A DNA stretch of 41,487 nucleotides from assembly GCA_016936555.1 (NCBI GenBank), contig JAFGXR010000074.1, positions 1 through 41,487 on the forward strand. Direction: 5' to 3'. The first letter of the stretch is position 1. Each line of letters starts with the position of its first letter. This DNA is from Spirochaetales bacterium (GTDB taxonomy: Bacteria; Spirochaetota; Spirochaetia; DSM-2461). Below, piece after piece: positions 9,320 through 34,515 of the stretch. The notes beneath the pieces are model-generated. The model was not told the DNA's origin. It worked only from the letters and a program-made list of their open reading frames with translations, and searched no databases. The position numbers and the translations under genes were made by a program.

Positions 9320-9367
9320 TTAATAAAATAATAATTTATCGAAGTGAAGTCCTTCAAAGGAGGAGCA

Positions 9368-10118: not shown

Positions 10119-10119
10119 T

Positions 10120-10461
10120 ATGATAATGGGATATATCGGCGGAATACTCGCCATAATCGGATCGCTCTTTCTTCTCCTGGCCGCTATCGGACTCATCAGA
10201 ATGCCCGACACCTACAACAGGATGCAGGCCGGAACGAAAGCCACCACGCTGGGAAGCGCCCTTATCTTCGCGGGGATCGCCTTGCATCAGCCCGGATGGG
10301 AACTGAAAATGACGGGACTTATCATCTTCGTTTTTCTCACCAACCCCCTCTCCTCCCACGCGCTGGCGCGGGCGGCCCATTTCATCGGGATGAACCCTTT
10401 CGTCAAGGGAAAGAGCCAATCGTCCCGCGATGACCTGAAGGCAAGGAGGGATGAAGAATGA
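10120..10461 (+). CDS. MbxC/MrpG-like antiporter subunit
   Basis: 113-residue MrpG/MnhG/PhaG-family protein with three helices. The typical RMPDTYNRMQAGTKATTLG motif follows the first helix, and FLTNPLSSHALARAAH closes the third. Strong ribosome site (AAAAGGAG). The stop overlaps the next start (ATGA). Part of the sodium module of the complex. Confidence 0.9.
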   Translation: MIMGYIGGILAIIGSLFLLLAAIGLIRMPDTYNRMQAGTKATTLGSALIFAGIALHQPGWELKMTGLIIFVFLTNPLSSHALARAAHFIGMNPFVKGKSQSSRDDLKARRDEE

Positions 10462-10727
10462 TCTACATCGTAGCCGTTTTGGGTATCGTCATCGCCGTTT
10501 CGGCGGTTTTCGCTCTCTACACGGGGAAAATACTATCGGCCATTATCGCCAGCGGAGCGGTCAGCCTCGTCGCCTCGCTCATCTATATACTGGCGGGAGC
10601 GCCCGATGTCGCCATGACAGAAGCGTCCATAGGTTCGGCTCTGACGACAGTCGTTTTCCTCATAGCCTGGAGGCGGATCAGCCGTATCGTCGCAACCTCC
10701 ACGGAAAAGGAGGATAAAAATGCTTAA
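10458..10727 (+). CDS. MbxD-like subunit (MrpA C-terminal DUF4040 homologue)
   Basis: 89-residue three-helix protein matching the DUF4040 domain found as MbhD/MbxD in archaeal Mbh/Mbx complexes and as the C-terminal part of MrpA. The segment YILAGAPDVAMTEASIGSAL is the conserved core, with the Asp and Glu expected in the ion path. Its ribosome site AAGGAGGGATGAAGA lies within the end of the upstream gene, and it overlaps both neighbours by a few bases. Confidence 0.88.
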   Translation: MIYIVAVLGIVIAVSAVFALYTGKILSAIIASGAVSLVASLIYILAGAPDVAMTEASIGSALTTVVFLIAWRRISRIVATSTEKEDKNA

Positions 10728-11421
10728 AAGAATCCTTCTTATTGTTTCCATGGTTCTTCTGGCGCTTATATTGCTTCCTCTCCTGGAAGGCCTGGGAGAA
10801 CAGACTCATGTTTCCTCTCTGGCGGAATACTATCTCTCCTCCGGCGCCGACGACCTGAACTCACCCAATCTGGTCACTTCGGTCGTCGTAACCTACCGGG
10901 GCCTGGATACGCTGGGGGAAGTGACGGTTCTCTTCGCAGCCGCGGCGGGAATCATGCTGGCCTTCAAAGGGCTGAAGATGGATGAAAAAGAGAGGGAAAA
11001 GACCCAGGGACCCAGCGAACTGCTCGCCAGCGGCGCTTCCCTGCTTTTCCCCATACTCTTCATATTCGGGATCTATATTTTCACTCACGGGCACCTGAGT
11101 CCGGGGGGAGGATTTCAGGGAGGCGTCGTTATCGCTTCGGCCGCCCTCCTTCTTCTTCTCAGCGGCGTCATTCCGGGTGTTTCCCACCTCATGACCTCGC
11201 TCCTCGAAGCTCTTGCCGGAGCCTCCTATGTGGCGATCGGTCTTCTGGGCCTCTATCTGGCGGCGGGATTTCTCGATCCCCGATTCCTTCCCAGGGGCGA
11301 ATGGAGCGGGATATTTTCCGCCGGCGCCATACCGGTCATCTACTCCCTCGTGGGAATAAAAGTCGGCTCGGAGCTCAGCGCCGTACTGAACGCCATGATC
11401 TCCAAAGGAGGTGAAAAGTGA
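10720..11421 (+). CDS. MbxF-like subunit: fused MbhE and MrpB/MbhF domains
   Basis: 233 residues. Residues 1-90 resemble MbhE (an MrpA C-terminal piece), with VVVTYRGLDTLGEVTVLFAA; residues about 100-233 are an MrpB/MnhB domain with FTHGHLSPGGGFQGGVVIASA (121-141) and a conserved helix LEALAGASYVAIGL. The E+F fusion is the arrangement known for Mbx (MbxF) rather than Mbh, where the two are separate. AAGGAGG precedes the ATG. Sodium module, membrane. Confidence 0.85.
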   Translation: MLKRILLIVSMVLLALILLPLLEGLGEQTHVSSLAEYYLSSGADDLNSPNLVTSVVVTYRGLDTLGEVTVLFAAAAGIMLAFKGLKMDEKEREKTQGPSELLASGASLLFPILFIFGIYIFTHGHLSPGGGFQGGVVIASAALLLLLSGVIPGVSHLMTSLLEALAGASYVAIGLLGLYLAAGFLDPRFLPRGEWSGIFSAGAIPVIYSLVGIKVGSELSAVLNAMISKGGEK

Positions 11422-11774
11422 CGCAATTACTCTACATTCTGGCTTTCGTCGTCATGGCGATCGGCCTGTGGGGAATCCTCTCGCGGAGACATCTTATCCG
11501 CATGATCATAGGGTTTTCCATTCTGGATACGGGCATACACATCCTTCTGGTGGCGATCGGCTACCGCAAGGGCGGAACGGCTCCGATCCTCGATGAAGCT
11601 CTTTCGAAGGGAGAGGCTTTAATGAATGCGGTCGACCCCGTCCCTTCGGCTCTGGTTCTGACGGCCATCGTTATCGGCCTGGCCGTTACAGCGCTGATGC
11701 TCAGTTTCGCCGTGCGGATGGTTCAGAATAATCCGACTATGAATGCCGATGAGCACAAGGAGTTGAAATGGTGA
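11418..11774 (+). CDS. MbxG/MrpC/NuoK-like subunit
   Basis: 118-residue MrpC/NuoK-family protein with three helices. Visible marks: GLWGILSRRHLIRMIIGFSILDTGIHILLVAIGYR, and DPVPSALVLTAIVIGLAVTALMLSFAVR, the usual TAIVI-G-A helix of MrpC. The start is GTG at 11418 (GTGA overlap with the preceding stop) with AAAGGAGGTG upstream. The insertion RKGGTAPILDEALSKGEAL between helices 2 and 3 is characteristic of MrpC-type rather than NuoK-type proteins. Confidence 0.88.
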   Translation: MTQLLYILAFVVMAIGLWGILSRRHLIRMIIGFSILDTGIHILLVAIGYRKGGTAPILDEALSKGEALMNAVDPVPSALVLTAIVIGLAVTALMLSFAVRMVQNNPTMNADEHKELKW

Positions 11775-14700
11775 CACCTATTGTTATAATTGCAGCGGCT
11801 CTGGCTATGGCCTTCCTTCTCCCTGTGCTGGAAAAGGCGGGAAAGGGTCTGATAAAAACACTGAGCCTTCTCGTTCTGGCGGGCTTTTTCGCAGCCAGTC
11901 TCTCCTGGGTCGCCCAAATTCTCCAGACAGGAGCCATTATCAGTCAGACAGCCGGTTTCAAAGCGCCCGTATCCATAAACCTGTCGGTTTCCATGATGGA
12001 GGCGACGGGTCTGGCCGTGATTTATCTTGTCGCTTTACTCAGCGGAGCCTTTCAGATCTTCGTAAAGAAAGCGGTCTGGCAGGGGAAAGAGTTGTCCCTC
12101 TACTTCGCTCTCATTCTGGGATTGAGCGGGCTGGTGATGACAAGAGACCTCTTCAACCTCTTCGTTTTTATGGAAATAACATCCATTTCCCTCTACGGGC
12201 TTCTCGTGTCCGGCCGCGATGAGCGGCGATTCGAGGGGGGATTCAAGTACATGATCGCCGGAGGGCTCTCCTCGGCGTTCTACCTTATAGGCGTGGCCTT
12301 CCTCTACAGAGAAACGGGACAGCTCAATCTCGATATCATTGTGGCACAGAGCGGACAGGCCAACCTCTACCTGCCTCTCCTGCTCCTGACGATCGGGATT
12401 CTCATAGAACTGAAACCCTTTCCCGCTAACGGCTGGGCCCTCGATGTGTACGAATCAGCCGATCCGGGAACGGGAGCCGTCATAAGCGCCATGAACACGA
12501 CAGCGCTCATTCTGGTTTTTATGAAATTAATGCCTCTGCTTCAGGCTTTCGGCAGCGGCATTGTCTATGCAGCCCTTATAATCGCCGGCCTGACCTTTTT
12601 CCTTGCCAATCTGGCGGGTATCCGGCAGACCAGCGGCCGCAGAATGCTCGGCTATTCATCGCTTGCCCAGACCGGTCTCATTCTTTTCGTTCTGCTGAGC
12701 CCGTCGGCAGGTTTGTCGGAAGAAAGGGGATTATCGATTATCGCATCGATGCTCCGCCTGGATACAATTGAAGTGATTGCGCTGGCTCTGCTGATCAATC
12801 ACGCTCTGGCAAAAAGCGCTCTTTTCTGGCTGACGGAATTCCTCAAAAAGGACGCACTTCACAAATCATCGGAAGAAGGTGACTACCGCGGCAACAGGGG
12901 CTGGCTCATTCCGGCAGGAATGGCCGTTCTCGCCCTGACGGCTCTGCCCCCCTTCCCGGGATTCTGGGCGAAATGGGCTGTCATAACCTCTTTCGGCGCC
13001 GCCGGAAACATCGGCGGAATCGCCGTCATTCTGATCGGTTCTCTCCTGGAAGTGTATTACCTCTTCCGCTGGTTTATCAGAACCCAGGCCCACGGTGAGG
13101 ATGGCGGAGACGTTATCGCTCCTCAGGTTCCGGAAGATTTTGCACCGGAAGCGGCTCCCGCACCGGCCGGCCTGACCATAAAACCGGCCTGGCAGATTTT
13201 TGCTCCGGCCCTCAGCATCATCATTCTGACATCTCTCGGGCTGGCCTGGGCCTTCCTGAGCCTGTCAGGCGGTCAGGAACTGCTTCTTCTGCCCCTCGCG
13301 GCTCTGGCCCTCTATGCCCTTTTTGATCTTATAGCTCTGCCTTTCGCCGTGAAAAATATTCTGGCCATGGCGGGGCTCGGCGGATACGCTTATCTCATCT
13401 ACGGCGAACTGAACAATATGACGCTTATATTCGGCGCTGTTTTCATTGCCGGTTCACTGGTCCAGCTCTTCCTGCTCTTCAATAAAAGAGATAAGAGATC
13501 GGGGCTTCTCCCCTTTCTGGTAATGATGATCCTCTCGCTGGGGAACCTCCTTGTTTTCAAAAGCTCCCTCGGATTCTTCTTTTCCTGGGAAATGATGACT
13601 GTCTCCTCCTTCTTTCTGGTTATCCGGGGACGACAGGCCTCAAGAGCTTCTCTCCGTTACATCATGTTTTCCCTCGCCGGAGCTTTTATGATCATGTACG
13701 CGCTGGCCGACGGATTCAGAGGTCCGCTTACAGGACTGGTTTTCGCAATAGGCCTTCTGATCAAAATGGGCGCGATCGGGTTCCATATCTGGCTTCCCGG
13801 CGCTTATGCGGAAGCGGAGGACGAAGTTTCCACCTTTCTCAGTTCGGTTCTCAGCAAAGCGGGACTTTTCATTCTCTTTATCACGGCGGGAATCTACGGA
13901 CAGACATTCTTTCCGGGCGCGGGCAATGCCTTTCTCGCCTCGATCGACATCAACGCCATTCTGGGTTGGATCGGCGTCATAACCGCTCTGGCGGGAGCGA
14001 TGATGGCCCTCTTCCAGGAGGATATCAAATACACTCTGGCCTATTCTTCCATGGGGCAGATCGGCTATATGATACTGGCCTTCAGCATCCAGTCCCATCT
14101 GGGCTGGGTGACAGCTCTCTATCTGGCTGTGACCCATCTCCTCTTCAAAGGGCTCCTCTTCATGGCCATAGCCGGCGTTATCATGAGGACGGGAACCCGG
14201 CTCATGTATCAGATGGGAGGATTGATTAAGAAGATGCCCATCAGCTTTATCTCCGTGCTTCTGGCGATTATCGCCCTTTCCGGCGTCCCGCCGCTGACAG
14301 GATTCGGCGGCAAGTGGCTGCTTTACTCTTCGCTTATGGAGAAGGGCTGGTATCTCCACGCGGGACTGGCCATGTTCTCATCGGGCGTCGCCTTCCTCTA
14401 TCTGTTCCGGCTGATCCACACGATTTTCCTGGGGCAGCCCAAAACCGGCATGTTTGAAAACATCAAGGAAGCGCCGATCTGGGGCCTAATCCCCCAGGCG
14501 ATTTTCATGATGGTCATCATGGGATTCTCCATGTTCCCCTCCCTGCTGATCAAGCCGCTCCAGGCTGCGGTGGAAATGGTTTATCCCGCCGCCGCCGAAG
14601 GCGTGGCCTGGCAGGGCTCCACGGTTCTGTCGTCCCTGGGCTACTGGAACGGCTCGGCAGTTATGTACGTCACCATGGGAGTTTTTCTGATTCCCCTGGC

Positions 14701-15004
14701 CTGGCTGATGATCGTGAACGGCAGAATCCAGAAGGTGAAGCAGTTCAATATCGTTTTCGCCGCCGAACGGCCCTATAAACCGGAAACGACCCACTATGCC
14801 TACAATTTCTTCTCCCACTATCAGAAAGCCCTCGGCTTCCTGGTCGAAGTGCGGGCCGAGCGGTTCTGGACCATGATAAGGAAATCGACTGACGCCCTCG
14901 GCGGGCTGGTGCGCAGGATCTATTCGGGCAACGCCCAGACCTACGCCTTCCATATCATCATTTTCGTCATACTATTCCATCTTCTGGCAGGAGGGACATT
15001 CTGA
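11768..15004 (+). CDS. MbxH-MbxH' fusion: two proton/sodium-conducting antiporter-like subunits in one chain
   Basis: 1078 residues made of two NuoL/M/N-MrpD-like units. First half (1-500): Glu136 in FVFMEITSI, Lys216 in LIELKPFPANGW, Lys349 in NHALAKSALFW. Second half (about 505-1078): Glu608 in FFSWEMM, Lys666 in LLIKMGAIGFHIWLPGAY, Lys697 in VLSKAGL, Lys794 in THLLFKGLLF. These are the Glu/Lys residues of the proton path in complex I antiporter-like subunits. A charged, Ala/Pro-rich linker (about 438-472) lies near the join. In archaeal Mbx, H and H' are separate genes in this position; here they are fused without a frameshift. ATG with CAAGGAG upstream. Two pumps suggest a greater coupling capacity than Mbh, which has one. 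Confidence 0.9.
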   Translation: MVTPIVIIAAALAMAFLLPVLEKAGKGLIKTLSLLVLAGFFAASLSWVAQILQTGAIISQTAGFKAPVSINLSVSMMEATGLAVIYLVALLSGAFQIFVKKAVWQGKELSLYFALILGLSGLVMTRDLFNLFVFMEITSISLYGLLVSGRDERRFEGGFKYMIAGGLSSAFYLIGVAFLYRETGQLNLDIIVAQSGQANLYLPLLLLTIGILIELKPFPANGWALDVYESADPGTGAVISAMNTTALILVFMKLMPLLQAFGSGIVYAALIIAGLTFFLANLAGIRQTSGRRMLGYSSLAQTGLILFVLLSPSAGLSEERGLSIIASMLRLDTIEVIALALLINHALAKSALFWLTEFLKKDALHKSSEEGDYRGNRGWLIPAGMAVLALTALPPFPGFWAKWAVITSFGAAGNIGGIAVILIGSLLEVYYLFRWFIRTQAHGEDGGDVIAPQVPEDFAPEAAPAPAGLTIKPAWQIFAPALSIIILTSLGLAWAFLSLSGGQELLLLPLAALALYALFDLIALPFAVKNILAMAGLGGYAYLIYGELNNMTLIFGAVFIAGSLVQLFLLFNKRDKRSGLLPFLVMMILSLGNLLVFKSSLGFFFSWEMMTVSSFFLVIRGRQASRASLRYIMFSLAGAFMIMYALADGFRGPLTGLVFAIGLLIKMGAIGFHIWLPGAYAEAEDEVSTFLSSVLSKAGLFILFITAGIYGQTFFPGAGNAFLASIDINAILGWIGVITALAGAMMALFQEDIKYTLAYSSMGQIGYMILAFSIQSHLGWVTALYLAVTHLLFKGLLFMAIAGVIMRTGTRLMYQMGGLIKKMPISFISVLLAIIALSGVPPLTGFGGKWLLYSSLMEKGWYLHAGLAMFSSGVAFLYLFRLIHTIFLGQPKTGMFENIKEAPIWGLIPQAIFMMVIMGFSMFPSLLIKPLQAAVEMVYPAAAEGVAWQGSTVLSSLGYWNGSAVMYVTMGVFLIPLAWLMIVNGRIQKVKQFNIVFAAERPYKPETTHYAYNFFSHYQKALGFLVEVRAERFWTMIRKSTDALGGLVRRIYSGNAQTYAFHIIIFVILFHLLAGGTF

Positions 15005-15936
15005 TGTTAACATCAATTTTAACCAAAGCCCTGTACACCCTCATATCCTTCTTCGTGATACTCAATTATTCCCTTCTGCTTCTGGGAACGATGGCAAGGG
15101 TAAGGGCCAAGGTTCAGGGGCGTATCGGCCAGCCGGTCTGGCAGCCCTATATCGATATTATCAAGAACAACGCCCGGAGAAGCGGCGTCACCCACGGGAT
15201 CATGTTCTACCTCGGGCCGGTCTTCCGGCTGGCGGGAGGACTGGGAACCTATTTCTTCATCCCCGTCATCTTCGGATCGAAAATTTTCGCCAACTTCAGC
15301 TTTTCCGGCGATGTGCTGCTCGTCATGTATTTCATCTTCTTCGGACAGCTGGGCATGGCCCTGGGAGCCGGAGAGAGCGGACACCCCTACAGCCCCATCG
15401 GGGTCGCACGGGGCCTGGCCCAGATGACGGCCTTCGAACTGCCCTTCTCGCTGGCGGTTATCGCCGTCGCCGCCCAGTACGGCAGCTTCTCCATTACGGA
15501 GATCGTTGCCGCCCAGCAGGGAGGATGGCAGAACTGGGTGGCCTTTACCAACCCCTTCGCCATGGCCGCCGGCATGCTGGCCTTCCTGGGAATGTCCATG
15601 AACAATCCCTTCTCGATCGTTATCGCGCCGCAGGAAATTCCCATCGGGCCGCCGACGGAAATGCATTCCTCATTCCTGGGGATGCTGCAGACCAACCGGG
15701 CCATCTTCAACGGCGCCAAAATGGTTCTCTTTATGAACCTCTTCTTCGGCGGAGCGGCCCATCCCAATATATTCATCGCCCTGGGAATCATGATCATGAA
15801 GACCTTCCTCATCTACCTCTACGTGGTCTTCGTCGGCGTTTCATTCCCCCGGTTCCGGACCGAACAGTCCATCCGGTTCTTTCTGGGAGTCCCCACTCTG
15901 CTGGGACTGATCGCTGTGATCCAGCAGATGATTTAA
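15004..15936 (+). CDS. MbxM/NuoH-like membrane subunit
   Basis: 310-residue NuoH/HyfC/MbhM-family protein with about eight helices, linking the hydrophilic arm to the pumps. Conserved regions: RVRAKVQGRIGQPVWQPY near the N-terminus, GVARGLAQMTAFELPFSL with the functional Glu, and the loop IGPPTEMHSSFLGMLQ, which faces the quinone-like or catalytic site in complex I relatives. It starts one base inside the preceding stop (TGATG). The gene precedes J rather than following L, the order known from Mbx. Confidence 0.9.
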   Translation: MLTSILTKALYTLISFFVILNYSLLLLGTMARVRAKVQGRIGQPVWQPYIDIIKNNARRSGVTHGIMFYLGPVFRLAGGLGTYFFIPVIFGSKIFANFSFSGDVLLVMYFIFFGQLGMALGAGESGHPYSPIGVARGLAQMTAFELPFSLAVIAVAAQYGSFSITEIVAAQQGGWQNWVAFTNPFAMAAGMLAFLGMSMNNPFSIVIAPQEIPIGPPTEMHSSFLGMLQTNRAIFNGAKMVLFMNLFFGGAAHPNIFIALGIMIMKTFLIYLYVVFVGVSFPRFRTEQSIRFFLGVPTLLGLIAVIQQMI

Positions 15937-15946
15937 GGAGTTTGAT

Positions 15947-16603
15947 GTGAGTGACAATATGAATGATATGGACCAGATACAGCTCTTCAACGACCAGGGC
16001 AGGCTCCTCAACGCCGGTCTTCCCGACGAGGAAAAAGCCCTGTTCTGCGACGCCGCGCCTCAGGTCGACGCCCCCTACCGGGGCATCTGGGAGAAATTCC
16101 TCAACTGGGCCCGATCCGAATCCCTCTGGATTCTCGGCTTCGGTACGGGCTGCGGAGCCATAGAGCTCCGCCCTCTTATGACCAGCCGCTACGACATGTA
16201 TCAGTACGGCGTTCAGCCCAGGCCGACGCCGCGCCAGGCCGGGCTCTTCATCATCGGAGGTTACGCCTCGGTCAAAACCATGAAGAGAATCGTCCGCTCC
16301 TACGAGCAGATGCAGGGCCCCAAGTTCGTTCTGGGACTGGGAAGCTGCACGGTAAACGGCGGCATGTACTGGGACAGCTACAACACGATAAACAGACTGG
16401 ACCACTATATACCGGTGGATGTCTACATCGCCGGATGCATGCCCAGGCCCGAAGCTCTCCTGGCGGGCATCAACGAGCTGAAGAAGCTTATCAAAGAAGG
16501 AAAAGGCGAAAACGCCAACAAGTATGCGGAAAATTTCGAATGGTACAAACGGAACCAGAAGAAAATCATCAAAGACTGGAATATGCCGGACTACAACTGG
16601 TAA
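15947..16603 (+). CDS. MbxJ/NuoB-like iron-sulfur subunit with three cluster cysteines
   Basis: 218 residues, NuoB/MbhJ family; carries the proximal [4Fe-4S] cluster next to the L subunit. Candidate ligands are Cys69 (GFGTGCGAIE), Cys134 (GLGSCTVNGG) and Cys164 (AGCMPRPEAL). The fourth ligand, which is an adjacent Cys in NuoB (CC) or CxxC in hydrogenases, is replaced: Gly follows Cys69. Three-cysteine ligation matches the site-differentiated cluster described for the archaeal sulfane-reducing Mbs complex. The start is GTG at 15947 with AAGGAG six bases upstream; an in-frame ATG at 15959 is possible. Cys34 near the N-terminus is outside the motif. Confidence 0.88.
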   Translation: MSDNMNDMDQIQLFNDQGRLLNAGLPDEEKALFCDAAPQVDAPYRGIWEKFLNWARSESLWILGFGTGCGAIELRPLMTSRYDMYQYGVQPRPTPRQAGLFIIGGYASVKTMKRIVRSYEQMQGPKFVLGLGSCTVNGGMYWDSYNTINRLDHYIPVDVYIAGCMPRPEALLAGINELKKLIKEGKGENANKYAENFEWYKRNQKKIIKDWNMPDYNW

Positions 16604-16612
16604 GGAGAGGAC

Positions 16613-17149
16613 ATGACTGAATTTAACGAATTATCCAGACAATTCCAGATCTCCGATCTGAAGGAACAGAGAGCGGACCTCCACTTCTTCCATGCGTCGA
16701 AGGAACACGCGGTGGCGGTCCTTACCAGCCTGAAGGAAAAGTACGGCTACACCCATCTGGTGTTTTTTACGGTCGTCGATCACCTGGAAAAAAACGAATT
16801 TCATTTGACTTATATGCTCCACAATTACGAGAAGCATCACGATATGGGAGTGGTTGTGAAAATAGCCCGGGAGAATGTTCAGATGGAGTCGATCCATCAC
16901 CTCTGGCCGGCGGCGGCCACCTATCAGCAGGAGATACGGGAGATGTACGGCGTCGAGTTCCCCGGCAGCCCCGGGCTCTATGAGAACTTCGCCCTCGAAG
17001 GCTGGGAGGACATCCCCCCCATGCGCCGCGATTTCGACACGAAAGAATACTCGGACAAAACCTATTACCCGCGGCCCGGAAGAGAGTCGCACGATCCGAG
17101 GGAGTATATGAAAGAAAATCTTTATCCCGGCGAGGCGGAAACATGGTAA
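16613..17149 (+). CDS. MbxK/NuoC-like subunit
   Basis: 178-residue NuoC/MbhK-family protein (30-kDa subunit type). Family marks are YTHLVFFTVVDHLEKNEFHLTYML and the segment WPAAATYQQEIREMYGVEFPG, then the RRDF region near the C-terminus. It binds no cofactor and scaffolds the J-L pair on the cytoplasmic face. AAGGAGAGG precedes the ATG; the last 7 bases overlap the next gene. Confidence 0.9.
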   Translation: MTEFNELSRQFQISDLKEQRADLHFFHASKEHAVAVLTSLKEKYGYTHLVFFTVVDHLEKNEFHLTYMLHNYEKHHDMGVVVKIARENVQMESIHHLWPAAATYQQEIREMYGVEFPGSPGLYENFALEGWEDIPPMRRDFDTKEYSDKTYYPRPGRESHDPREYMKENLYPGEAETW

Positions 17150-18315
17150 AAGAAAAAGAAAACAGCAAGTTTCCTCCCCTGGTGGACGGAAAAAGCCAGT
17201 ACGATCTGACATCGGGCAAATACCTGAGGGTCTGGCAGGGCCCCCAGCATCCGGGTATTACCGGAAACATGTCGCTGGAGCTGACGATCTGCGGAGACGA
17301 GATCATAGACTGCAAAACCCATGTGGGCTACCTCCACAGAGGCTTCGAAAAGCTGATGGAGCGGAGAAAATACATCCAGTGCTTTCCCGTGGTCTGCCGG
17401 ATCTGCGTGCCCGAACCGGATTTCAACGAATACCTTTTCGCGGCGTGCACCGAAGAGCTGGCGGGAATACAAATACCCGAACGGGCCGAATGGATCCGGA
17501 CTCTCAATCTGGAAATGGCCAGGCTGACCAGCTTCCTCATGTGGATCGGCGGCCAGGCGGGCTCTTTCGGCATGGGAACCATCGGCCAGTGGACCGTCAC
17601 CCTCCGCGACTATATGCTCGACCTCTTCGAGGAACTGACCGGCGGAAGAATCTACCACATGTACATGCTTCCCGGAGGCGTCCGGGCCGATTTCCCCCCG
17701 GGATGGATCAATAAGCTGCTGGATACGCTCAAAACGGTTGAGAAGACCCTCGATGATGTGGAACTGGCCATGATGCACAACGCCGTCTTTAAAATGAGGG
17801 CGAAAGGCCTGGGAATCATAACGCCCGATATGGTGGATAAATACGGCATAACCGGCCCCAACGCCAGAGCAGCGGGCGTGGCCAGGGATATCAGGAAAGA
17901 CTCCCCCTACCTCGTTTACGACAAACTGGATTTCGAAATCGTCACGGGAACGAAGTCCGATGCCTACGGGCGTTGCGAAGTGCGGATAAAAGAGATGTAT
18001 CAGTCTATAGACCTGATCAGGCAGATCGTGGAGAAAATGCCCAAGGAAGGCCCTTTCTTCACCAAACTGCCCAACGTTCTCCACTGGCGGATCCCCGCCG
18101 GACACACTTACAAACGGGCCGAATGCACCAGAGGGGAATACGGATTCTACGTCCAGTCCGACGGATCGGACAAGCCGAGGCGGACCTATGTGAGAGGCCC
18201 CTCCTACACCCATGCCGTGGCTCTTATGGAGCATCTGGCCATCAGGACCAATATCGCCGATACGGCCGGTTTAATGGTCAGCCTGCACACCTATCCGCCG
18301 GAAATAGAGAGGTAA
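17143..18315 (+). CDS. MbxL/NuoD-like large subunit lacking the C-terminal NiFe cysteine pair
   Basis: 390 residues, NuoD/large-hydrogenase family. The N-terminal region retains one CxxC, CRIC (Cys85, Cys88) followed by VPEPDFNE, but the C-terminal DPCxxC of NiFe hydrogenases is absent: the chain ends LHTYPPEIER. The NiFe centre thus cannot be bound in the usual way, so proton reduction is unlikely. This pattern is that of Mbx/Mbs rather than Mbh. The QHPGITGNM region and KTHVGYLHRGFEKLMERR match NuoD/MbhL. It overlaps the upstream K gene by 7 bases. The active reaction is inferred from the attached N subunit (see findings). Confidence 0.9.
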   Translation: MVKEKENSKFPPLVDGKSQYDLTSGKYLRVWQGPQHPGITGNMSLELTICGDEIIDCKTHVGYLHRGFEKLMERRKYIQCFPVVCRICVPEPDFNEYLFAACTEELAGIQIPERAEWIRTLNLEMARLTSFLMWIGGQAGSFGMGTIGQWTVTLRDYMLDLFEELTGGRIYHMYMLPGGVRADFPPGWINKLLDTLKTVEKTLDDVELAMMHNAVFKMRAKGLGIITPDMVDKYGITGPNARAAGVARDIRKDSPYLVYDKLDFEIVTGTKSDAYGRCEVRIKEMYQSIDLIRQIVEKMPKEGPFFTKLPNVLHWRIPAGHTYKRAECTRGEYGFYVQSDGSDKPRRTYVRGPSYTHAVALMEHLAIRTNIADTAGLMVSLHTYPPEIER

Positions 18316-18318
18316 GAG

Positions 18319-20103
18319 ATGAGTTTAAAAGACATTATAGCCCCCTTTTCCGTGTGGAAAAGAGCTCTGGAAAAACCCTATACGAACAGAAAGCCCATTG
18401 AAACCCGGCCGGGAGCCGACCGCTACCGGGGGTTTCATCAGAACGCCATAGACCAGTGCATCGGCTGCGGAACCTGCGAGGAGATCTGCCAGAACAACGC
18501 CATCGACCTGGTTCCCCTGGAAGGGAAGACAAGCTCCCACGGCGATTCGGGGCTGAGGCCGAAAATCGATTACGGCCGGTGCTGCTGGTGCGCCCTCTGT
18601 GTGGACATCTGCCCGACCGGCAGCCTGGGAATGAGCAACGAGTACATCTGGATCACCACCGATCCGGAGGACTTCCGCTTTATCCCCGGCGGCGAGTCCA
18701 AGCCCTGGGACGACCGGGCCGAAGGATACAGGCGCGCCGAAGGCTACGATCTTCTCGAAGCGGAACGGGTGGAAATGCCCATGCTCTCCTTCGAGGAATC
18801 GCAGAAGAGCTTTATCGAAATGGTTCAGGGTTACAGCAAAGAACAGGCCATGGAGGAAGCGGATCGCTGCGTGGCCTGCGGAATCTGTATCGCCACCTGT
18901 CCCGCCCATATGGACGTTCCCGCCTATATCGAAGCGATCCGCAATGACGATATGGGAGAAGGACTGAAAATCGTCTACAACGCCAATCCCCTGCCGGCGA
19001 GCTGCGGGCGGGTCTGTTCTCATGCCTGCGAGTATGTCTGCGCCATGAAGCACAAAGGCGAAGCCATTTCCATCCGCTGGCTCAAGCGTTACATCATCGA
19101 TCAGATCTATCTGGGCGATTACAAGGAAATCCTGAAGAGCGCCGACGAGAGCAACGGAAAGAAAATCGCCGTAATCGGTTCCGGCCCCGGAGGATTGAGC
19201 GCCGCTTATTATCTCCGGCTTCTGGGATATGAAATCACCGTATTCGACGCCAACGAGAAAGCCGGGGGTATGCTCCGCTACGGAATCCCCGAATACAGGC
19301 TCCCCTACGAACAGGTGGATAAGGATGTGGAATACATCCGGCAGCTGGGCGTCACCATAAACCAGGACCTGAAGATCGGCGTGGACCGGGATTTCAAAAG
19401 CCTTTATGACGAGTACGACGCCATTTTCTTCTCCACGGGATTGAAAGATCCCTACGGACTGGAAATTGCCGGAGAAGATCTTCCGGGCGTCCAGTCCGGT
19501 CTGGATATTCTCGACGAAGTGACCAAAGGCAAAACTCCCGACATCGGTAAATCGGTTGTCGTCGTGGGAGGCGGAAACGTGGCCATGGACGCGGCCAGAA
19601 CGAGCCGCCGCTACGGGGCCGAAGTGACCATCCTCTACAGAAGGCGGGAAGTGGATATGCCCGCCGACGAAGAGGAGATCCATGAGTCTCAGGGAGAGGG
19701 ATGCAAGCTGGTCACCCAGGCCATACCGCTCCGCGTGGAGAAAGGCGACTCGACCAGGCTGAAACTGTTCTTCGGAATGGCGGAAATGGTTGACCAGGGC
19801 GAAGGCCAGAGGCCCAAACCGGTTCTGATCGAAGGATCGGAGGAAGTCATCGAATGCGATTCGGTCATTACGGCCATCGGACAGGAAGCGGATTACAGCT
19901 TCATTCCCGAAGAGATCGGCAAAAACCTGGTGTTCAACCGCGGCATGGTTCAGATCAATGAGTTCAGGCAGACAGGAGATTCCAAGATCTTTGCCGGAGG
20001 TGATATCGCCAACCGCAAGCGCGATGCCATCAGCGCCATTGCCGACGGGCATTCGGCGGCGAAAGGGATCGATATCTACCTGACGAATTTTAAAGAAAAA
20101 TGA
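18319..20103 (+). CDS. MbxN-type ferredoxin fused to a GltD/NfnB-like FAD/NAD(P)H oxidoreductase
   Basis: 594 residues. Residues 1-120 are an MbhN/NuoI-like double-cluster ferredoxin: Cys47, 50, 53, 57 and Cys88, 91, 94, 98. Residues about 145-270 are the N-terminal Fe-S region of GltD/NfnB proteins: Cys184, 187, 190, 194 and Cys229, 233, 237, 241. FAD-binding GSGPGG is at 287-292, the NAD(P)-binding GGGNVAMDAART at 417-428 followed by LYRRRE (suggesting NADP(H)), and the FAD C-terminal FAGGDI at 558-563. This joins the electron-input subunit of the membrane complex to a pyridine nucleotide site. In other Mbx operons N is a plain ferredoxin. Last gene of the operon; the 3 bases before its ATG separate it from L. 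Confidence 0.92.
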   Translation: MSLKDIIAPFSVWKRALEKPYTNRKPIETRPGADRYRGFHQNAIDQCIGCGTCEEICQNNAIDLVPLEGKTSSHGDSGLRPKIDYGRCCWCALCVDICPTGSLGMSNEYIWITTDPEDFRFIPGGESKPWDDRAEGYRRAEGYDLLEAERVEMPMLSFEESQKSFIEMVQGYSKEQAMEEADRCVACGICIATCPAHMDVPAYIEAIRNDDMGEGLKIVYNANPLPASCGRVCSHACEYVCAMKHKGEAISIRWLKRYIIDQIYLGDYKEILKSADESNGKKIAVIGSGPGGLSAAYYLRLLGYEITVFDANEKAGGMLRYGIPEYRLPYEQVDKDVEYIRQLGVTINQDLKIGVDRDFKSLYDEYDAIFFSTGLKDPYGLEIAGEDLPGVQSGLDILDEVTKGKTPDIGKSVVVVGGGNVAMDAARTSRRYGAEVTILYRRREVDMPADEEEIHESQGEGCKLVTQAIPLRVEKGDSTRLKLFFGMAEMVDQGEGQRPKPVLIEGSEEVIECDSVITAIGQEADYSFIPEEIGKNLVFNRGMVQINEFRQTGDSKIFAGGDIANRKRDAISAIADGHSAAKGIDIYLTNFKEK

Positions 20104-27568: not shown

Positions 27569-28216
27569 TTAATCCGGATCTACAATTTCAAATCCTTGAA
27601 TAGAAGAAATCATGACATCATCTACCCACATTTCGTTATGGCACTCGAATCGAAGGCCGCCTGTTTTATTCACATCTGCTGGTAATGTGGTGCTGATTCT
27701 CCGTTTTCCATTGATGAATATTGCAATTTTGCTCTCTTTTACAAGAATATCGATTACATACCATTGATTTCGCGCCAATTTTGAATTGCTATGAAAACCT
27801 TCACCCCATTCATCCTGGGACAGCTGGTAGAAGCTTCCTATGCTTTGCGTATCGAAATTGATACAGAACCGTTTCGCCCCATTGGTAAACAGGTTTATAT
27901 GGGATAGAGGATGAGGCCGATTTATATCTTTCCCCAATTTCAGCCTGAAACTGATATGTACCGGATCAGTATAGAAAACCGGGATTTCAGCTCCGAGGCC
28001 TTCCCCTTCAGGGGCGGTAAAGTGAAGCTCTTCATCATCCAGTATGATTGACTGGGGCTGATGGATGTTTATACCTTCGGGCAATACTGCAAAATCACTC
28101 TGAAAAAGCACTTTTTCCTCATGCATTCGATAGTTATTAAAATTCATACTTGCACAGGAAGCAAAAAATAAGAGGAAACTCATAGATCCTAAAACTAATA
28201 AAAATCTGTAATTCAC
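27569..28216 (-). CDS. Lipoprotein with a concanavalin A-like (LamG-type) domain, paralogue B
   Basis: 215 residues. Signal peptide with lipobox FFASC (Cys21), so lipid-anchored, probably at the outer membrane or periplasm. Residues about 35-205 form a ConA-like beta-sandwich: SFRLKLGKDINRPHPLSHINLF, NQWYVIDILVKESKIAIFINGKR and GGLRFECHNEMWVDDVMIS. The last stretch is clearly related to the C-terminal domain of the next gene upstream (FECHQEIFIDNVRLE). GTG start with AAAGGAG. It is the end of a minus-strand series, 114 bases after its paralogue. Glycan binding is plausible, but there is no catalytic motif. Confidence 0.78.
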   Translation of the reverse strand: MNYRFLLVLGSMSFLLFFASCASMNFNNYRMHEEKVLFQSDFAVLPEGINIHQPQSIILDDEELHFTAPEGEGLGAEIPVFYTDPVHISFRLKLGKDINRPHPLSHINLFTNGAKRFCINFDTQSIGSFYQLSQDEWGEGFHSNSKLARNQWYVIDILVKESKIAIFINGKRRISTTLPADVNKTGGLRFECHNEMWVDDVMISSIQGFEIVDPD

Positions 28217-28330: not shown

Positions 28331-29647
28331 TCAAAGAGGCAGATTGCCCAGGATTTCCCGTTCCAGCCGTACATTATCGATAAAAATCTCCTGATGACAT
28401 TCAAAGGAAAAACCTCCGGAACTCTGCAGCCTGTTATCATAAACATAGGTAATATCCGCATCCTGATTGATATCGTTGTAAACACGGACGACACCCTGTC
28501 TAATGAATATATACAGAGTGTGATAGGCTCCGTCATTATAGTAATCTGATCCTCCGTCCCAGGATTCTGTTGTCGTTGAAACTCCATCATAATGAGTTGT
28601 CATCCACAATCCGCTTTCATCAATCGTCAAAAATACTCTTGTATCTCCAGGACCGTTCCAATCGAGCATATTCACATGAAGCATTGGATGTGCGCCATTT
28701 AAGCCATCATTTCTCGTACCCAATTTAAAGTCGAACTTGATCAGCATGTTGTTTTCAATAGCGAACTGATCCAGATTGACATGGGGCACCGAATCCTCTC
28801 CATTTCCCGCCATATGAAGTTCTCCATTGACGTATTCAATGGTTCCTCCGGCATCGGCCCCTGTAAAATAGACAGAATCGTCACCGGAGAAATCATCTTC
28901 TATAAAATGGATGGTCTGTATGTCCAGCGATGCCGTGGTCTCGCCTACAGTATATATTGTCTGAGGATTTCCGGCGCTCAACTCCCGATGCCACGGTTCA
29001 TCGGCCGTCCAGTCCCTGTGATCAAAATTAGACGGAATGATATCAAAATCGTATTCACCGGGCTGTACTGAAAAGCTTCCGGACAGAATTGTTCCGTCCA
29101 GTTCAGTGGCATGAAAATGATAATGATTAAAGGCTTCCCCATCTGCGGAAATGCTGCTCATCCAGATTCCTGCATGATCAGGTGTAACCCCTTCGGCTAT
29201 CATGGAGGATACATCAATGTTGACGGTCAGATTATGAGTACCGGTCAGCCAGTTGTTATCAAAGGGCAAATCGGTTTCTTCGTTCTCGACAACAGTAAAT
29301 GCACGGGTTGCCGTTTCGCTGAATAACCGGCATCCCGTTGTATCGTCCCATTCCTTGTCCTGGATAATATAGCCTTGATAGTTTCCTGCCGGCAGGAGAA
29401 GGTTGAGACTCGCACTACTGTTTGCGCTGTCGGGAACCAGGGCGTGCCTGTATTCCGATCCGTCCGAAGGATCGATATAGACAAAACTCAATTCGGAAAG
29501 ATCGTAATCCGGTTCAAGATCCGTCAATACCTTTACGATGCCCTGACCGGGAATCAGAAGATCGGGAACGACACTGTCACAGGAGCCCAGTATCAGGGGA
29601 AAAAACGTAATAATTGTAAAAACGGTTGTGAAAAAGCTCTTTCTCAT
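28331..29647 (-). CDS. Lipoprotein with a C-terminal concanavalin A-like domain, paralogue A
   Basis: 438 residues. Lipobox LGSC puts the lipidated Cys at 23. Residues about 30-225 contain beta-rich Ig-like sandwich sequence (GIVKVLTDLEPDYDLSELSF, LPAGNYQGYI, VQPGEYDFDI); residues about 245-430 carry the ConA-like domain (HPMLHVNMLDWNGPGDTRVF, GAYHTLYIFIRQGVVRVYN, FECHQEIFIDNVRLE). The start is ATG 29647, preceded by GAGGAA; an earlier frame extension to 29707 runs back towards the -12 promoter element and is not used. The gene lies directly downstream of a sigma-54-type promoter and is the probable output of the adjacent two-component pair. Confidence 0.8.
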   Translation of the reverse strand: MRKSFFTTVFTIITFFPLILGSCDSVVPDLLIPGQGIVKVLTDLEPDYDLSELSFVYIDPSDGSEYRHALVPDSANSSASLNLLLPAGNYQGYIIQDKEWDDTTGCRLFSETATRAFTVVENEETDLPFDNNWLTGTHNLTVNIDVSSMIAEGVTPDHAGIWMSSISADGEAFNHYHFHATELDGTILSGSFSVQPGEYDFDIIPSNFDHRDWTADEPWHRELSAGNPQTIYTVGETTASLDIQTIHFIEDDFSGDDSVYFTGADAGGTIEYVNGELHMAGNGEDSVPHVNLDQFAIENNMLIKFDFKLGTRNDGLNGAHPMLHVNMLDWNGPGDTRVFLTIDESGLWMTTHYDGVSTTTESWDGGSDYYNDGAYHTLYIFIRQGVVRVYNDINQDADITYVYDNRLQSSGGFSFECHQEIFIDNVRLEREILGNLPL

Positions 29648-29701
29648 GCAATTCCTCGCTGTCAAAATTGTACTTCCCAAAAGGAAGCTCCGCAAAGATC
29701 T

Positions 29702-29719
29702 ATGCAAAACTCATGCCAG
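29702..29719 (-). promoter_or_regulatory. Sigma-54 (-24/-12) promoter of the lipoprotein genes
   Basis: On the minus strand, read from 29719 down, CTGGCATGAGTTTTGCAT fits the consensus YTGGCACGrNNNTTGCW with one mismatch (T for C). The GG and GC elements are exactly 10 bases apart. Transcription should start near 29692, giving a 45-base leader to the ATG at 29647. Confidence 0.75.
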
Positions 29720-29769
29720 TGTTTAATCAGAGCGATTTTAAGTGTTTGAGGAAGATAAACGCAGATAAG

Positions 29770-29800
29770 TGTAAACTATGTGGTCACCAATATGTTTACA
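29770..29800. promoter_or_regulatory. 31-bp dyad, candidate upstream activating sequence
   Basis: TGTAAAC (29770-29776) and GTTTACA (29794-29800) are perfect inverted repeats. The inner bases also pair partly (TGGT/ACCA around C29785), 11 of 15 positions in total. The centre is about 93 bases upstream of the predicted sigma-54 start, the usual position for an NtrC-family activator dimer site. Confidence 0.6.
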
Positions 29801-29859
29801 TAGGGTAAAAACGTAGGCATATCAGATTTCCCGGATTTTCATGTCTATTTGAGAACCCC

Positions 29860-31854
29860 TTACTGATAGATATCCATAAAGGTACTGTGATCATAACTGA
29901 AATGTGATGCATTATATCGGCCATCAGGATCGCAGGATCTGATTTCATTGTTACTGAAATAGTATAAGCGGTTCAAATCAAGAACAAAAGCGAGACCCAT
30001 AGGATAGGTCAGGCCCGAGACAATCGTTTCAACTTTTCCGGTTGCGATTTCAAGTCGTTTTATGGAACCCCTCCCTTCGGGAACCCAATTCGACCAGAAT
30101 AAAAAAAGGTTTGCTTCATCAAGCGCCAGACTGTGGGGAGACTCCTGACCTGAAACTAAGATTTCCCGATCGGATCCGTCTGTTGAAATTCTGAGAATTG
30201 TCCCTTCTGATTCATCGGTAATATACAGTTTATCATCCCCGGCATCCAGAGCCAGTCCAATAGGCGCATCCACAACACTCTCATCGAGGAGAATCTGCAC
30301 ACCGGAACCATCGGAACGTGACGTTTTAACTGTTTTGTTTCCAAAATCGGTCCAGTATAATCTTTGCTTTTCAGGATCTACGGCGATATCAGCGGGCATA
30401 ACAAGATCCTCATCGATTAATTGAATCTTTCCGTTTCCCAGAAAATCGGACTGGAAAATCGCACCTCTGCTGTAATCAGTCCAATAAATTTTTCTGTCCT
30501 GTCGGTCCAGGGCAATACCATAGGAATTGAATATCCCATAATGTCTCATATCTTCGCTTTGATCGGAACCCGGTGAAAATGATGACATGAAGCCATGATC
30601 ATTTGCCATATAAATCCTGATGTTTTCTTCATGGCTTTCCGGAAAGAAAAGAACACTGTGATTGTTCTCTATTCCCGTAAGAGAGAAGCTGGTGGTCATG
30701 ATTAAATTATCCCGAATCACCACATCTGTAAATCCGTCATGCAAACCGGTCAGGTCGATCCTGTCCAGAATATCCTGATTATGATTGACCACAAGGATCC
30801 GGGATCCCGTATTAAGATACGCTCTGTCGGCTGTAATGGCTATTCCCCGAAAAGATTGCCCCTCTATATTAAGTAGCTCTTGATCGCTACCGTCAGTATT
30901 CATCGACAGAACGCCATCAATCTCGTTTTTCCCTACAACATATAATCTGCCGTCGAAGATACACATGTCTATATAATCCGAAGCGTCATTCCGGGAAGAA
31001 AAGGCCAGCGCGAACTGATCGATCAAATCGAGGGTAAACTTGTCCAGAATATAAATGATATCGGTTTCTCTATCGGCGACGTAAAGGCGGTCCCCGGATA
31101 TGAGAATGGATACAGGTTGGGATCCCAAAGACTTTTCTCTCAAATAAGAAAACCCGCTATCGTATTCGATGATTTTACTATCGTCGAGATCGCAGGCCCA
31201 TAATGTTCCGGAATCCTTATCAATGGCAATTCCATGTATTCCCGCAGCGCCGGCAAGATCGAATACCGAACTGTTGATTCCCGATTGCCCCGGCATAGGC
31301 ACTTTCATCAGCTTGTTGTTTTTCCAGTTGACGGTAAAGAGATATCCCTCGTAGTAAACCAGATTGTATCCGCCGTCTTCTCCTCCTGTATCGAGAATTC
31401 CGGAGGGAACAGAACTGTCAAAATAATCCGGACCGCTCCTTCCCGCATCCGTTGGGACAGCGATTTCCATGTCAGAGGGAACGGTCAGCTTCCTGCCCAG
31501 TCCGTTATAGGCGATGATGGAAGTCCCTTCCTCCTCTGTCTTCCAGAACAGGATATCCGATTTCCAGTCCCCATCAACATCATAGGTGTCCAATAAGCGA
31601 TACCCTTCAGGGACGGAAAACTTCCTGAGGGACTCTCCTTTTCCATTAAAGATTCCGACATAAAGCCCCTCATCACTGAGATATTCCACATCTTCCTTTC
31701 CCAGAATATCCGCCGCGACAAGCCGGTCCTTATCGTTTCCATTGAAGTTGTATAATAAATCCGCGGTGTCTGAGGAAATCAAATCCCTTATTTTTCCATT
31801 GGAACAGGAAAACACAATAGTTACAATGAAAAGCAGAAAGAACCGGGCTCTCAT
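29860..31854 (-). CDS. Lipoprotein with FG-GAP-like and YWTD (LDL-receptor class B-like) beta-propeller domains
   Basis: 664 residues. Lipobox VFSC (Cys17). An acidic DVDGDWKSD loop (92-100) resembles the calcium-binding loop of FG-GAP/VCBS repeats. Residues about 160-430 contain NHL-like blades. Residues about 440-640 contain YWTD repeats: YWTD at 457-460 and 500-503, YITD at 544-547, degenerate FWSN and YYFSN later; such repeats are typical of LDL-receptor class B propellers, used for protein binding. ATG 31854 is preferred, with AAAGG upstream; the TTG at 31860 has no proper spacing. It starts 2 bases after the kinase stop, hence same transcript as RR and HK. An extracytoplasmic sensor role for the kinase is a reasonable guess. 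Confidence 0.82.
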   Translation of the reverse strand: MRARFFLLFIVTIVFSCSNGKIRDLISSDTADLLYNFNGNDKDRLVAADILGKEDVEYLSDEGLYVGIFNGKGESLRKFSVPEGYRLLDTYDVDGDWKSDILFWKTEEEGTSIIAYNGLGRKLTVPSDMEIAVPTDAGRSGPDYFDSSVPSGILDTGGEDGGYNLVYYEGYLFTVNWKNNKLMKVPMPGQSGINSSVFDLAGAAGIHGIAIDKDSGTLWACDLDDSKIIEYDSGFSYLREKSLGSQPVSILISGDRLYVADRETDIIYILDKFTLDLIDQFALAFSSRNDASDYIDMCIFDGRLYVVGKNEIDGVLSMNTDGSDQELLNIEGQSFRGIAITADRAYLNTGSRILVVNHNQDILDRIDLTGLHDGFTDVVIRDNLIMTTSFSLTGIENNHSVLFFPESHEENIRIYMANDHGFMSSFSPGSDQSEDMRHYGIFNSYGIALDRQDRKIYWTDYSRGAIFQSDFLGNGKIQLIDEDLVMPADIAVDPEKQRLYWTDFGNKTVKTSRSDGSGVQILLDESVVDAPIGLALDAGDDKLYITDESEGTILRISTDGSDREILVSGQESPHSLALDEANLFLFWSNWVPEGRGSIKRLEIATGKVETIVSGLTYPMGLAFVLDLNRLYYFSNNEIRSCDPDGRYNASHFSYDHSTFMDIYQ

Positions 31855-31856: not shown

Positions 31857-33119
31857 TCAAACCTTTAACGGCACGATTATATTGACAAAAGCCCCTACGG
31901 AACTCCGGTTTCCCGTCTCCATAAATCCCCCGTTGGACTCACTGATTCGGCTGCAGATTTTCAATCCCAGCCCCATGCCTGAGCTTTTTCGCTGATCCCT
32001 GAATCCGGGGCCGTTATCCTCGACGGAAAATTTCAGATGAGAGGAGTACTCATCTATCTTTTTCAAAGAAATTTTTATCATTTTATGCCCTTCGATTGTT
32101 TCCAGAACCTGCAAAGAATTTTTAATGGGATTGGAGAAAAGAGAAATTAAATCGATTTCCTGTATGGTTATATCTATTCTTTCATCTGTATCCAGCGTTA
32201 TCAAATCCCGCTTATGGGCCGGAACGGTAAGCAGAATGACATCATTTAGAACGCTAACGGCATCAATACGGCGGGGGCTGTCTTTACGAGTTACCAGATA
32301 AATTTGCTTCATTTTACTGATATGCTTCTGAATCGTTTTGAAACCGACTTCGTATTGCCTGCAAATGCCTTCGAGTTCTTCTGTAATGGATGAGATTTTA
32401 TTTCGGAATTCCCGATGAGATTTTGAATCCAAATGTTTAAGAGATTCCAGTTCTCCCATTATTTCCCGGAGAAAATAAACATTCCCTTCCATATGGTTCA
32501 GAGGATTGTTCACCTCATGAACAAAAGAAGCGGTCATATTCTGCAGCTGATGGGCTCTTTCATACTCCAGAAGCTGCCTGTTCATTTCCGTAATCCTTTC
32601 TGCGACTTCCAAACCCATTTGGTCTTGAAGGATCTGCCTGTTCCCCATGACCTGAGCTAAATACATTACAAGCATGACAAGACTGAGTATCAGGGAACTG
32701 GAAAGGGCATGGTCTTTCAGAAAAGAGAGTAAGAGAAGCTGGCCTAAAACAGCTAAGGAAAGGACTGTAAATCCCTTTGCAGATTCGAAACCCGTAGCCA
32801 GAATAATGCTCGATAAAACATGAACGATTCCGGTCATAATGATAAAATAAGGGGGACTTCCGCCGGATATGCCATCGGGTAGAAAAAAATAAAACAGAAA
32901 GAAAAGCAAAAGAGAAAGTGCCAATCGGTTCATGAGAATAATGTTCTTTATAGGAAAGTTACCGAAATGGGAAACGGGCATTAGAAAATAGAGAGACAGG
33001 CAGCCGGCAATCAGATATCTGATATAATAATAATGCTGGGGAAGATACAGGAAGGAAAGGAATCCTGTAATGGAGAGAAATACGATATCGGTCAAAATGA
33101 GAATGACCGGAGGAGTCAT
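31857..33119 (-). CDS. Membrane histidine kinase with six-helix N-terminal sensor
   Basis: 420 residues. N-terminal region of about six helices (roughly residues 5-160) with little loop sequence, so it may sense within the membrane or through a partner. A coiled-coil linker EVAERITEMNRQLLEYERAHQLQN leads to the phosphoacceptor ASFVHEVNNPLNHMEGN (His201). ATPase boxes: SNPIKNSLQVLE (N box), VEDNGPGF (G1) and GMGLGLKIC (G2). The start ATG 33119 has AGGAA upstream; an ATG at 33143 would overlap the regulator. It is encoded 4 bases after the sigma-54 activator and immediately before the YWTD lipoprotein, which defines its partners. Confidence 0.88.
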   Translation of the reverse strand: MTPPVILILTDIVFLSITGFLSFLYLPQHYYYIRYLIAGCLSLYFLMPVSHFGNFPIKNIILMNRLALSLLLFFLFYFFLPDGISGGSPPYFIIMTGIVHVLSSIILATGFESAKGFTVLSLAVLGQLLLLSFLKDHALSSSLILSLVMLVMYLAQVMGNRQILQDQMGLEVAERITEMNRQLLEYERAHQLQNMTASFVHEVNNPLNHMEGNVYFLREIMGELESLKHLDSKSHREFRNKISSITEELEGICRQYEVGFKTIQKHISKMKQIYLVTRKDSPRRIDAVSVLNDVILLTVPAHKRDLITLDTDERIDITIQEIDLISLFSNPIKNSLQVLETIEGHKMIKISLKKIDEYSSHLKFSVEDNGPGFRDQRKSSGMGLGLKICSRISESNGGFMETGNRSSVGAFVNIIVPLKV

Positions 33120-33123
33120 CTTA

Positions 33124-34515
33124 CTATTCCTGAATAACAACATTGTATCTCTTCAATTTGTTTTTCAACCCCTGCCGGCTCAATCCCAGAGTATCGGCGG
33201 TACGGCTGATGTTATTGTTTAGTAATCCGAGATATTTGGAAATTATCTCTTTTTCAATACCCTCGAGGTATTCCTGTAAATGTATTTGTTCAGGAAGAAA
33301 CTCCTCTTCATGATCAGATTTCCGGGATATTTTATCGGGTTCGTCTCGTTTCAGTACATCCATTATGACGTCAGCCGAGATGTGGTCAATCTGATACATT
33401 TTCCCGTATATTGACAGTTTTTCCGTTAAGTGAATCAACTCCCTGACATTTCCATTCCAATTATGCTCAAAAAGAATTTTCCAGGCCGGTACCGACAGGG
33501 AAAACTCATTTGTATGAAGTTTCTTTGAATAATGGAGAGTCAATAAAGCGATGTCATCTTTCCGCTCCCGTAAAGGCGGAATATTCAACTCAAGCGGTGA
33601 TAACCGGTAAAAGAGATCTTCTCTGAACAGATTCTCATTTTTCATATTATTCAGATTCTTATGTGAAGCGGAAATAATCCTTATATCAGCCTTTTTTTCA
33701 ATAGATGAACCAACAGGATAATAAGTGCAATTTTCCAGAAGCCGTAATAAAGCTGCCTGGTGATCAAGAGAAATATCCGAAATCTCATCGAGAAATAAGG
33801 TCCCCCCGTCAGCCCGTCCGACAAAGCCGGGAGAGTCTGATAATGCACCGGAGAATGCGCCTTTGATATGGCCGAACAATTCACTTAAAAATAACTCTCT
33901 GGTCAGAGCGGCACAATTCACGGCGACAAATGGACCGTCTTTTCTTGGGGACAGCTGGTGAACAGCTCTGGCAAGAATTTCCTTTCCGGTTCCTGTTTCC
34001 CCATGGATAAAGAGGGGTAAAGAACTTTCCGAGTAAAATTCAGCCTTTGATTTTACCTCTTCTCCTGCAGCAGTTATTGTCAGAAAGGAATCCAGTGGCG
34101 AAGGGTCTTTAACAAAATAGCGTGATAAAGACTCTTCTGTTCTGATTAATGGCATCAGATCTACAATTTCATCAACAAGTTTTCTGATTTCCATGGGATT
34201 ATAGGGTTTAACAATATATTTGTATATCAACCGGGAATTCACTGCGCTTACGAGATCATCAGGATCCGTATAGGCGCTGACTATGATCGATATAATACCC
34301 TTCTTTTCGGCATCGACAAGTTTGACCAGCTCGATCCCCGATATCTCCGGCATCTTCTGATCAGCGATAAGCAGCCTGACGCTCTCATCACATCGTATGA
34401 AATCAAAGGCATCGAGGGGGTTGGTATAAGTTTTCAATCGATGATGCTTTAAAACTTTCTGAAGGAATATCAGATTTTCAGGTTCATCATCAACAAGGAC
34501 AATCGTATCTGACAT
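33124..34515 (-). CDS. NtrC-family sigma-54-dependent response regulator (GAFSGA variant)
   Basis: 463 residues, complete three-domain activator. REC domain with Asp52 (LIADQKMPE) and Lys103 (IVKPYN). AAA+ domain: Walker A GETGTGKE (172-179), GAFSGA (219-224) where the usual form is GAFTGA, Walker B GGTLFLDEIS (237-246), and FREDLFYRLSPLELNIPPLRER. C-terminal Fis-type HTH (NNISRTADTLGLSRQGLKNKLKRY). It should open sigma-54 promoters when phosphorylated; a fitting promoter and dyad are found at 29702-29719 and 29770-29800. The Thr-to-Ser change in the loop is conservative. First gene of the RR-HK-lipoprotein series. Confidence 0.95.
   Translation of the reverse strand: MSDTIVLVDDEPENLIFLQKVLKHHRLKTYTNPLDAFDFIRCDESVRLLIADQKMPEISGIELVKLVDAEKKGIISIIVSAYTDPDDLVSAVNSRLIYKYIVKPYNPMEIRKLVDEIVDLMPLIRTEESLSRYFVKDPSPLDSFLTITAAGEEVKSKAEFYSESSLPLFIHGETGTGKEILARAVHQLSPRKDGPFVAVNCAALTRELFLSELFGHIKGAFSGALSDSPGFVGRADGGTLFLDEISDISLDHQAALLRLLENCTYYPVGSSIEKKADIRIISASHKNLNNMKNENLFREDLFYRLSPLELNIPPLRERKDDIALLTLHYSKKLHTNEFSLSVPAWKILFEHNWNGNVRELIHLTEKLSIYGKMYQIDHISADVIMDVLKRDEPDKISRKSDHEEEFLPEQIHLQEYLEGIEKEIISKYLGLLNNNISRTADTLGLSRQGLKNKLKRYNVVIQE

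Follow-up and report, generated by a model that had tools for sequence, protein, structure and literature searches.

A predicted sigma-54 control region between a two-component regulatory cluster and two lipoprotein genes in a Spirochaetales bacterium

In the window (the whole 41,487-nucleotide stretch of contig JAFGXR010000074.1 that was analysed), a 212-base gap (29648-29859) separates the genes at 29860-31854 and 28331-29647. The locus raises the question of whether the gap places the downstream lipoprotein gene under the control of the sigma-54 activator encoded nearby. Comparison of sequences leads us to conclude, with a probability of about 0.86, that the gap is a sigma-54 control region from which the adjacent regulator switches on the lipoprotein gene at 28331-29647 and probably also that at 27569-28216. 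The genes concerned are:

27569..28216, minus strand: lipoprotein, paralogue of the last domain of the target, with a weak laminin-G/keto-disaccharide-hydrolase-like match
28331..29647, minus strand: target, a 438-aa secreted lipoprotein (lipobox LGSC), all-beta by low-confidence prediction
29860..31854, minus strand: beta-propeller (NHL/LDL-receptor-b repeat) lipoprotein, directly after the kinase gene
31857..33143, minus strand: membrane histidine kinase (HEVNNP box, HATPase_c), its gene overlapping the regulator gene
33124..34515, minus strand: response regulator/activator, REC-AAA+(GAFSGA)-Fis HTH (PF00072, PF00158 with E=5e-57, PF02954, over cut-offs)

The target lipoprotein matches no Pfam or NCBIfam family; its structure is predicted to be all-beta with low confidence (mean pLDDT 60, from a two-sequence alignment), and its partial galectin/laminin-G-like matches are only suggestive. 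The gene at 27569-28216 is probably co-transcribed with it as the second gene of the transcript, and no inverted repeat was found between the two. The only clear relative of the target in 395 genomes of the class (G098:C69, L060; 42-43% identity) is encoded behind another histidine kinase gene, and the short stretch inspected there shows no sigma-54 activator.

The predicted sigma-54 promoter

The gap contains the following elements, all but the Shine-Dalgarno sequence, which is read directly from the sequence, being predictions:

29653..29657, minus strand: Shine-Dalgarno GAGGA of the target gene
29703..29718, minus strand: sigma-54 -24/-12 element TGGCATGAGTTTTGCA, predicted +1 at 29692
29770..29786, plus strand: operator A TGTAAACTATGTGGTCA (TGT-N11-TCA), centre -86, best matrix match in the window
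29784..29800, minus strand: operator B TGTAAACATATTGGTGA, weaker, centre -100, overlapping A by 3 bp, second-best matrix match

As the initial annotation of this DNA had stated, the -24/-12 element on the minus strand (29718-29703) has exact GG-N10-GC spacing and, reading TGGCATG-AGTT-TTGCA, departs once from TGGCACGN4TTGCW. The target ATG at 29647 stands behind GAGGA and leaves a 45-nt leader from the predicted +1; the start given in the list of open reading frames (TTG, 29707) lies ahead of the predicted +1 and need not be invoked. No sigma-70-type promoter match was found in the gap. The annotation's judgement that such a promoter is unlikely to arise by chance in 212 bases agrees with the shuffled gaps, 0.1% of which reach its score on the right strand (chance about 0.001); equally good matches are expected 0.13 times per shuffled window, so that position before a gene and orientation carry much of the promoter's weight.

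Genome-wide specificity upholds the sigma-54 reading: the 4.73-Mb genome (134 contigs) has seven sites that fit TGGCAYGN4TTGCW exactly, and the reversed control pattern has one. Each of the seven is followed, some 20-50 nt beyond its predicted +1, by a start codon that has a Shine-Dalgarno sequence. The other six (L022-L026, L028) precede genes whose products, judged by sequence alone, look like a modA-type lipoprotein, a small heat-shock protein, a lipoprotein, a membrane protein, an amino-acid-binding protein and a PspA-like protein; the promoter of the PspA-like gene shares its contig with an activator gene. The same genome (G000) encodes RpoN (PF04552, E=3e-52) and has 20 matches to the sigma-54 activator domain, 16 of them strong. 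In sequence, spacing, place before a gene and the presence of RpoN in the genome, 29718-29703 has the properties expected of a sigma-54-dependent promoter and is predicted to be one.

The regulator, its putative operators and their relatives

The initial annotation had placed an activator of the right class three genes upstream, and the third gene upstream (33124-34515) indeed encodes intact REC, sigma-54 AAA+ and Fis-type HTH domains; this domain combination, with its GAFTGA-type loop, assigns the predicted product to the NtrC-class enhancer-binding proteins. The GAFSGA form of the loop has been reported as a working variant (PMC4641369, PMC6615313). The recognition helix SRQGLxNK is common to the regulators of the window, G047 and G035, and among the other activators of the genome with readable C-termini (a few are unreadable) the window form, SRQGLKNK, does not recur. 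No sigma-54 promoter was found before the activator gene. The N-terminal region of the propeller lipoprotein, a possible accessory sensor, is similar to lipoproteins whose genes follow the kinase gene in G047.

The receiver domain matches the HupR1 receiver structures 2jk1/2vui (E about 2e-11), among other receivers. The HupR/HoxA hydrogenase regulators have a REC-AAA+-Fis layout, and HupR is active when unphosphorylated; there is no hydrogenase target here, and the kinase control may have either sign. Elsewhere in the window (9344-20103, plus strand) lies a cluster of the Mrp antiporter/complex-I type, encoding MnhE, MnhG, MnhB/MbhE, a 4L-like subunit, a 1078-aa antiporter subunit and NuoH-, NuoB-, NuoC- and NuoD-like subunits, followed by an NAD(P)-dependent Fe-S oxidoreductase. 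In the NuoD-like large subunit an N-terminal CRIC motif is retained but a C-terminal CxxC is missing, which makes a standard NiFe hydrogenase seem unlikely.

The nearest relatives of the window regulator are found in other genera, in genomes G047, G067 and G035 (38-41% identity); the three other genomes of the genus yielded none as close. Beside these relatives a 17-bp operator is conserved before sigma-54 promoters in all three genomes, which supports the annotated pairing of the gap with the adjacent activator. In G047 the divergent gene has a sigma-54 site, TGGCATGGTGTTTGCA, preceded by TGTAAACTTACTTGACA; in G067, TGTCAACTTACTTGACA precedes both of the sigma-54 promoters TGGCACAGAATTTGCT and TGGCATGATTCTTGCT, of which the first leads into no clear gene and the second into a secreted-protein gene. 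The 17-mer of G047 and G067 (A or C at position 4) occurs four times in the 395 genomes of the class, three times at these loci; the fourth exact copy of TGTCAACTTACTTGACA lies at G056:C4:26347-26363 (L172), in a genome with few sigma-54 activators. Between the two near-identical copies of operator and promoter in G067 (L113 4931-5486) there is a toxin-antitoxin-like small gene pair, into which the first promoter now points antisense.

The operator pattern TGTMAAC-N4-TKGWCA (17 bp), derived from the G047 and G067 sites and the G035 region, was searched in seven genomes and has three matches on one 17.6-kb contig of G035 that carries the activator gene, one of which had helped to define the pattern while the other two were found by it. 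Each is followed on the same strand by a sigma-54 site and then a secreted-protein or lipoprotein gene, and the centres of the three operators precede the predicted starts by 170-173 bp. At 22 bp from one of the operators is a near-match to the pattern, and at 24 bp from one of them is TGACCACACCGTGGTCA, a perfect palindrome, which suggests that TGACCA is a half-site. On this contig (G035:C62, L184), 4598-8224 takes in two of these lipoprotein genes, with their sigma-54 sites and operators, beside the related regulator. As assembled, the activator gene there (15520-16940) is interrupted by an in-frame stop close to its start and is frameshifted ahead of the HTH, and its product may be inactive or the gene misassembled, through real decay or assembly error; if it is inactive, its operators would be remnants of a once-working circuit.

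A kinase gene adjoins the activator gene in G047 and G035, and the G067 contig breaks off inside the activator gene. The targets of the relatives are mostly secreted proteins or lipoproteins but without visible homology to the window targets, so that the cargo varies around a conserved, predicted regulator-operator pair. Among second-tier related activators (G062, G094, G106, G037, G080) the neighbours differ and no comparable promoter-operator pair was found.

The initial annotation had described a 31-bp dyad with perfect 7-bp ends some 93 bases upstream, and TGTAAAC-N17-GTTTACA is present at 29770-29800, centred at -93 (minus-strand sequence TGTAAACATATTGGTGACCACATAGTTTACA, 29800-29770); it also contains an inner TGGT-N-ACCA that the annotation did not mention. 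The arms themselves, on which that description leaned, are an insufficient argument and were rejected as evidence, since a perfect 7-bp inverted repeat with a spacer of up to 40 is present in 34% of shuffled gaps; the overall symmetry of the dyad (11/15) is matched in 5.7% of them. The genome scan that the annotation had proposed found no second copy with both arms perfect, for which reason a genome-wide regulon of the 31-bp dyad was rejected, and the full pattern with up to 3 mismatches was not found in 197 other genomes. The dyad is significant because of the comparative data, that is, the conserved 17-bp operators beside related regulators, and not because of its arms.

A matrix trained only on the G047, G067 and G035 sites, with those of the window left out, ranks 29770-29786 (plus) first and 29800-29784 (minus) second in the whole 41-kb window, and none of 3000 shuffled gaps equals both dyad halves, a test to be read with the caveat that the motif was defined after the window had been looked at. 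With fewer training sites, the window operator has a held-out P of 0.004. Operator A is identical at 15/17 positions to G035:C62:8208-8224, with half-sites TGTAAA and TGGTCA (complement of TGACCA); the inner half of operator B is poor. The 31-bp dyad thus consists of two overlapping, back-to-back putative operators, centred at about -86 and -100, nearer the promoter than those of the relatives (-139 to -225). The annotated role of the dyad as a regulator site is supported by the comparative operators, whereas its description as one 31-bp site gives way to two overlapping divergent 17-bp operators. Being of a type shared by related regulators and lying before a predicted sigma-54 promoter, they have the features of an upstream activating site for regulators of this group. 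The other places in the genome that match the operator pattern (C38, C70, C82 and C96) overlap open reading frames, have no sigma-54 site within about 1.5 kb on each side, and were treated as chance.

The proposed switch and its alternatives

The proposed chain runs from the membrane histidine kinase through the NtrC-class regulator and the sigma-54 holoenzyme to the two lipoprotein genes. RpoN holoenzyme would wait at 29718-29703 as a closed complex; the response regulator (33124-34515), controlled by its partner kinase (31857-33143), would bind both overlapping operators at 29770-29800, oligomerise and hydrolyse ATP, and its GAFSGA loop would remodel sigma-54, so that transcription starts near 29692. 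Occupancy could take the form of one dimer on operator A, with B as the weaker alternative, or of a higher-order complex across both. The promoter match with its genome-wide specificity, the presence of RpoN, the intact activator domains and the conserved operator are observations; binding, activation, the signal, the sign of the phosphorylation control and any sensing role for the propeller lipoprotein belong to the inferred part of this scheme.

The promoter might be real and yet be driven by another NtrC-class activator of the genome, with the adjacent regulator acting elsewhere. About 16 strong sigma-54 activator domains are available for this role, and activators are not always encoded beside their targets (PMC6615313); the gap operator, however, matches the operators beside relatives of this very regulator, whose recognition helix is not seen in the other readable activators of the genome, and we regard this alternative as improbable. 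It is quite improbable that sigma-54 has to do with the promoter alone, the dyad being bound by an unrelated repressor or some other factor, or forming an RNA element at the 3' end of the upstream gene. The dyad does lie just after the stop codon of that gene, and its arms are of a kind common by chance in such a gap, but a terminator or RNA structure found no support there (no terminator-like match, RNA folding that does not beat shuffled sequence at a z of 0.32, no Rfam family), and a matrix built from other genomes matches both halves.

That promoter match and dyad are both accidents, the genes being transcribed by upstream read-through or from some promoter that escaped notice, seems to us scarcely credible: the expectation of 0.13 such promoter matches per shuffled window and the frequency of 7-bp inverted repeats would each allow for one accident, but the genome-wide specificity of the promoter pattern, taken with the conservation of the operator, makes the joint chance very unlikely. 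Activation by the adjacent regulator through the operators in the gap remains our preferred explanation.

Relation to known sigma-54 systems

The predicted switch resembles the NtrC-class proteins with local sigma-54 targets described in Clostridiales (PMC6615313) and Desulfovibrio (PMC4641369), with which it shares an activator near the target operon, a -24/-12 promoter, a GAFTGA-type loop and an upstream operator of the TGT-N10-12-ACA type that is common in published members of the class (PMC6615313). It differs from them in its operator, TGTMAAC-N4-TKGWCA (TGT-N11-WCA), for which no earlier description was found in the literature and which is doubled back to back with a 3-bp overlap in the window, in its lipoprotein cargo, and in its occurrence in the class Spirochaetia. 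Among spirochaetes, the EbpA-sigma-54 system of Leptospira (PMC12655853) likewise has a sigma-54 activator switching on predicted lipoprotein genes, but EbpA has GAF sensor domains and targets that include amtB, whereas the window activator has a receiver domain and its own kinase and lies beside its predicted targets. In the Rrp2-RpoN-RpoS pathway of Borrelia (PMC4014564) a receiver-type sigma-54 activator also affects surface lipoproteins; that pathway works through RpoS, whereas here the predicted promoter, with its own operator, lies directly before the lipoprotein genes.

A broader generalization, which we offer tentatively as somewhat unlikely in its full form, is that a sparse module across the class Spirochaetia, made up of an SRQGLxNK REC-AAA+-Fis activator, a membrane kinase and the module's own operator TGTMAAC-N4-TKGWCA, with a propeller/repeat lipoprotein after the kinase in two genomes, switches on neighbouring surface-lipoprotein clusters that differ by genome, the propeller lipoprotein serving as an extracytoplasmic sensor.

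The understanding of sigma-54 control is unchanged by this locus, the predicted switch being of a well-known type, and the circuit fits the published view that sigma-54 is linked in general to the cell exterior and controls it (PMC3162934). Its value would lie in adding, for environmental members of the class Spirochaetia, one defined sigma-54 circuit whose operator may serve to find further targets.
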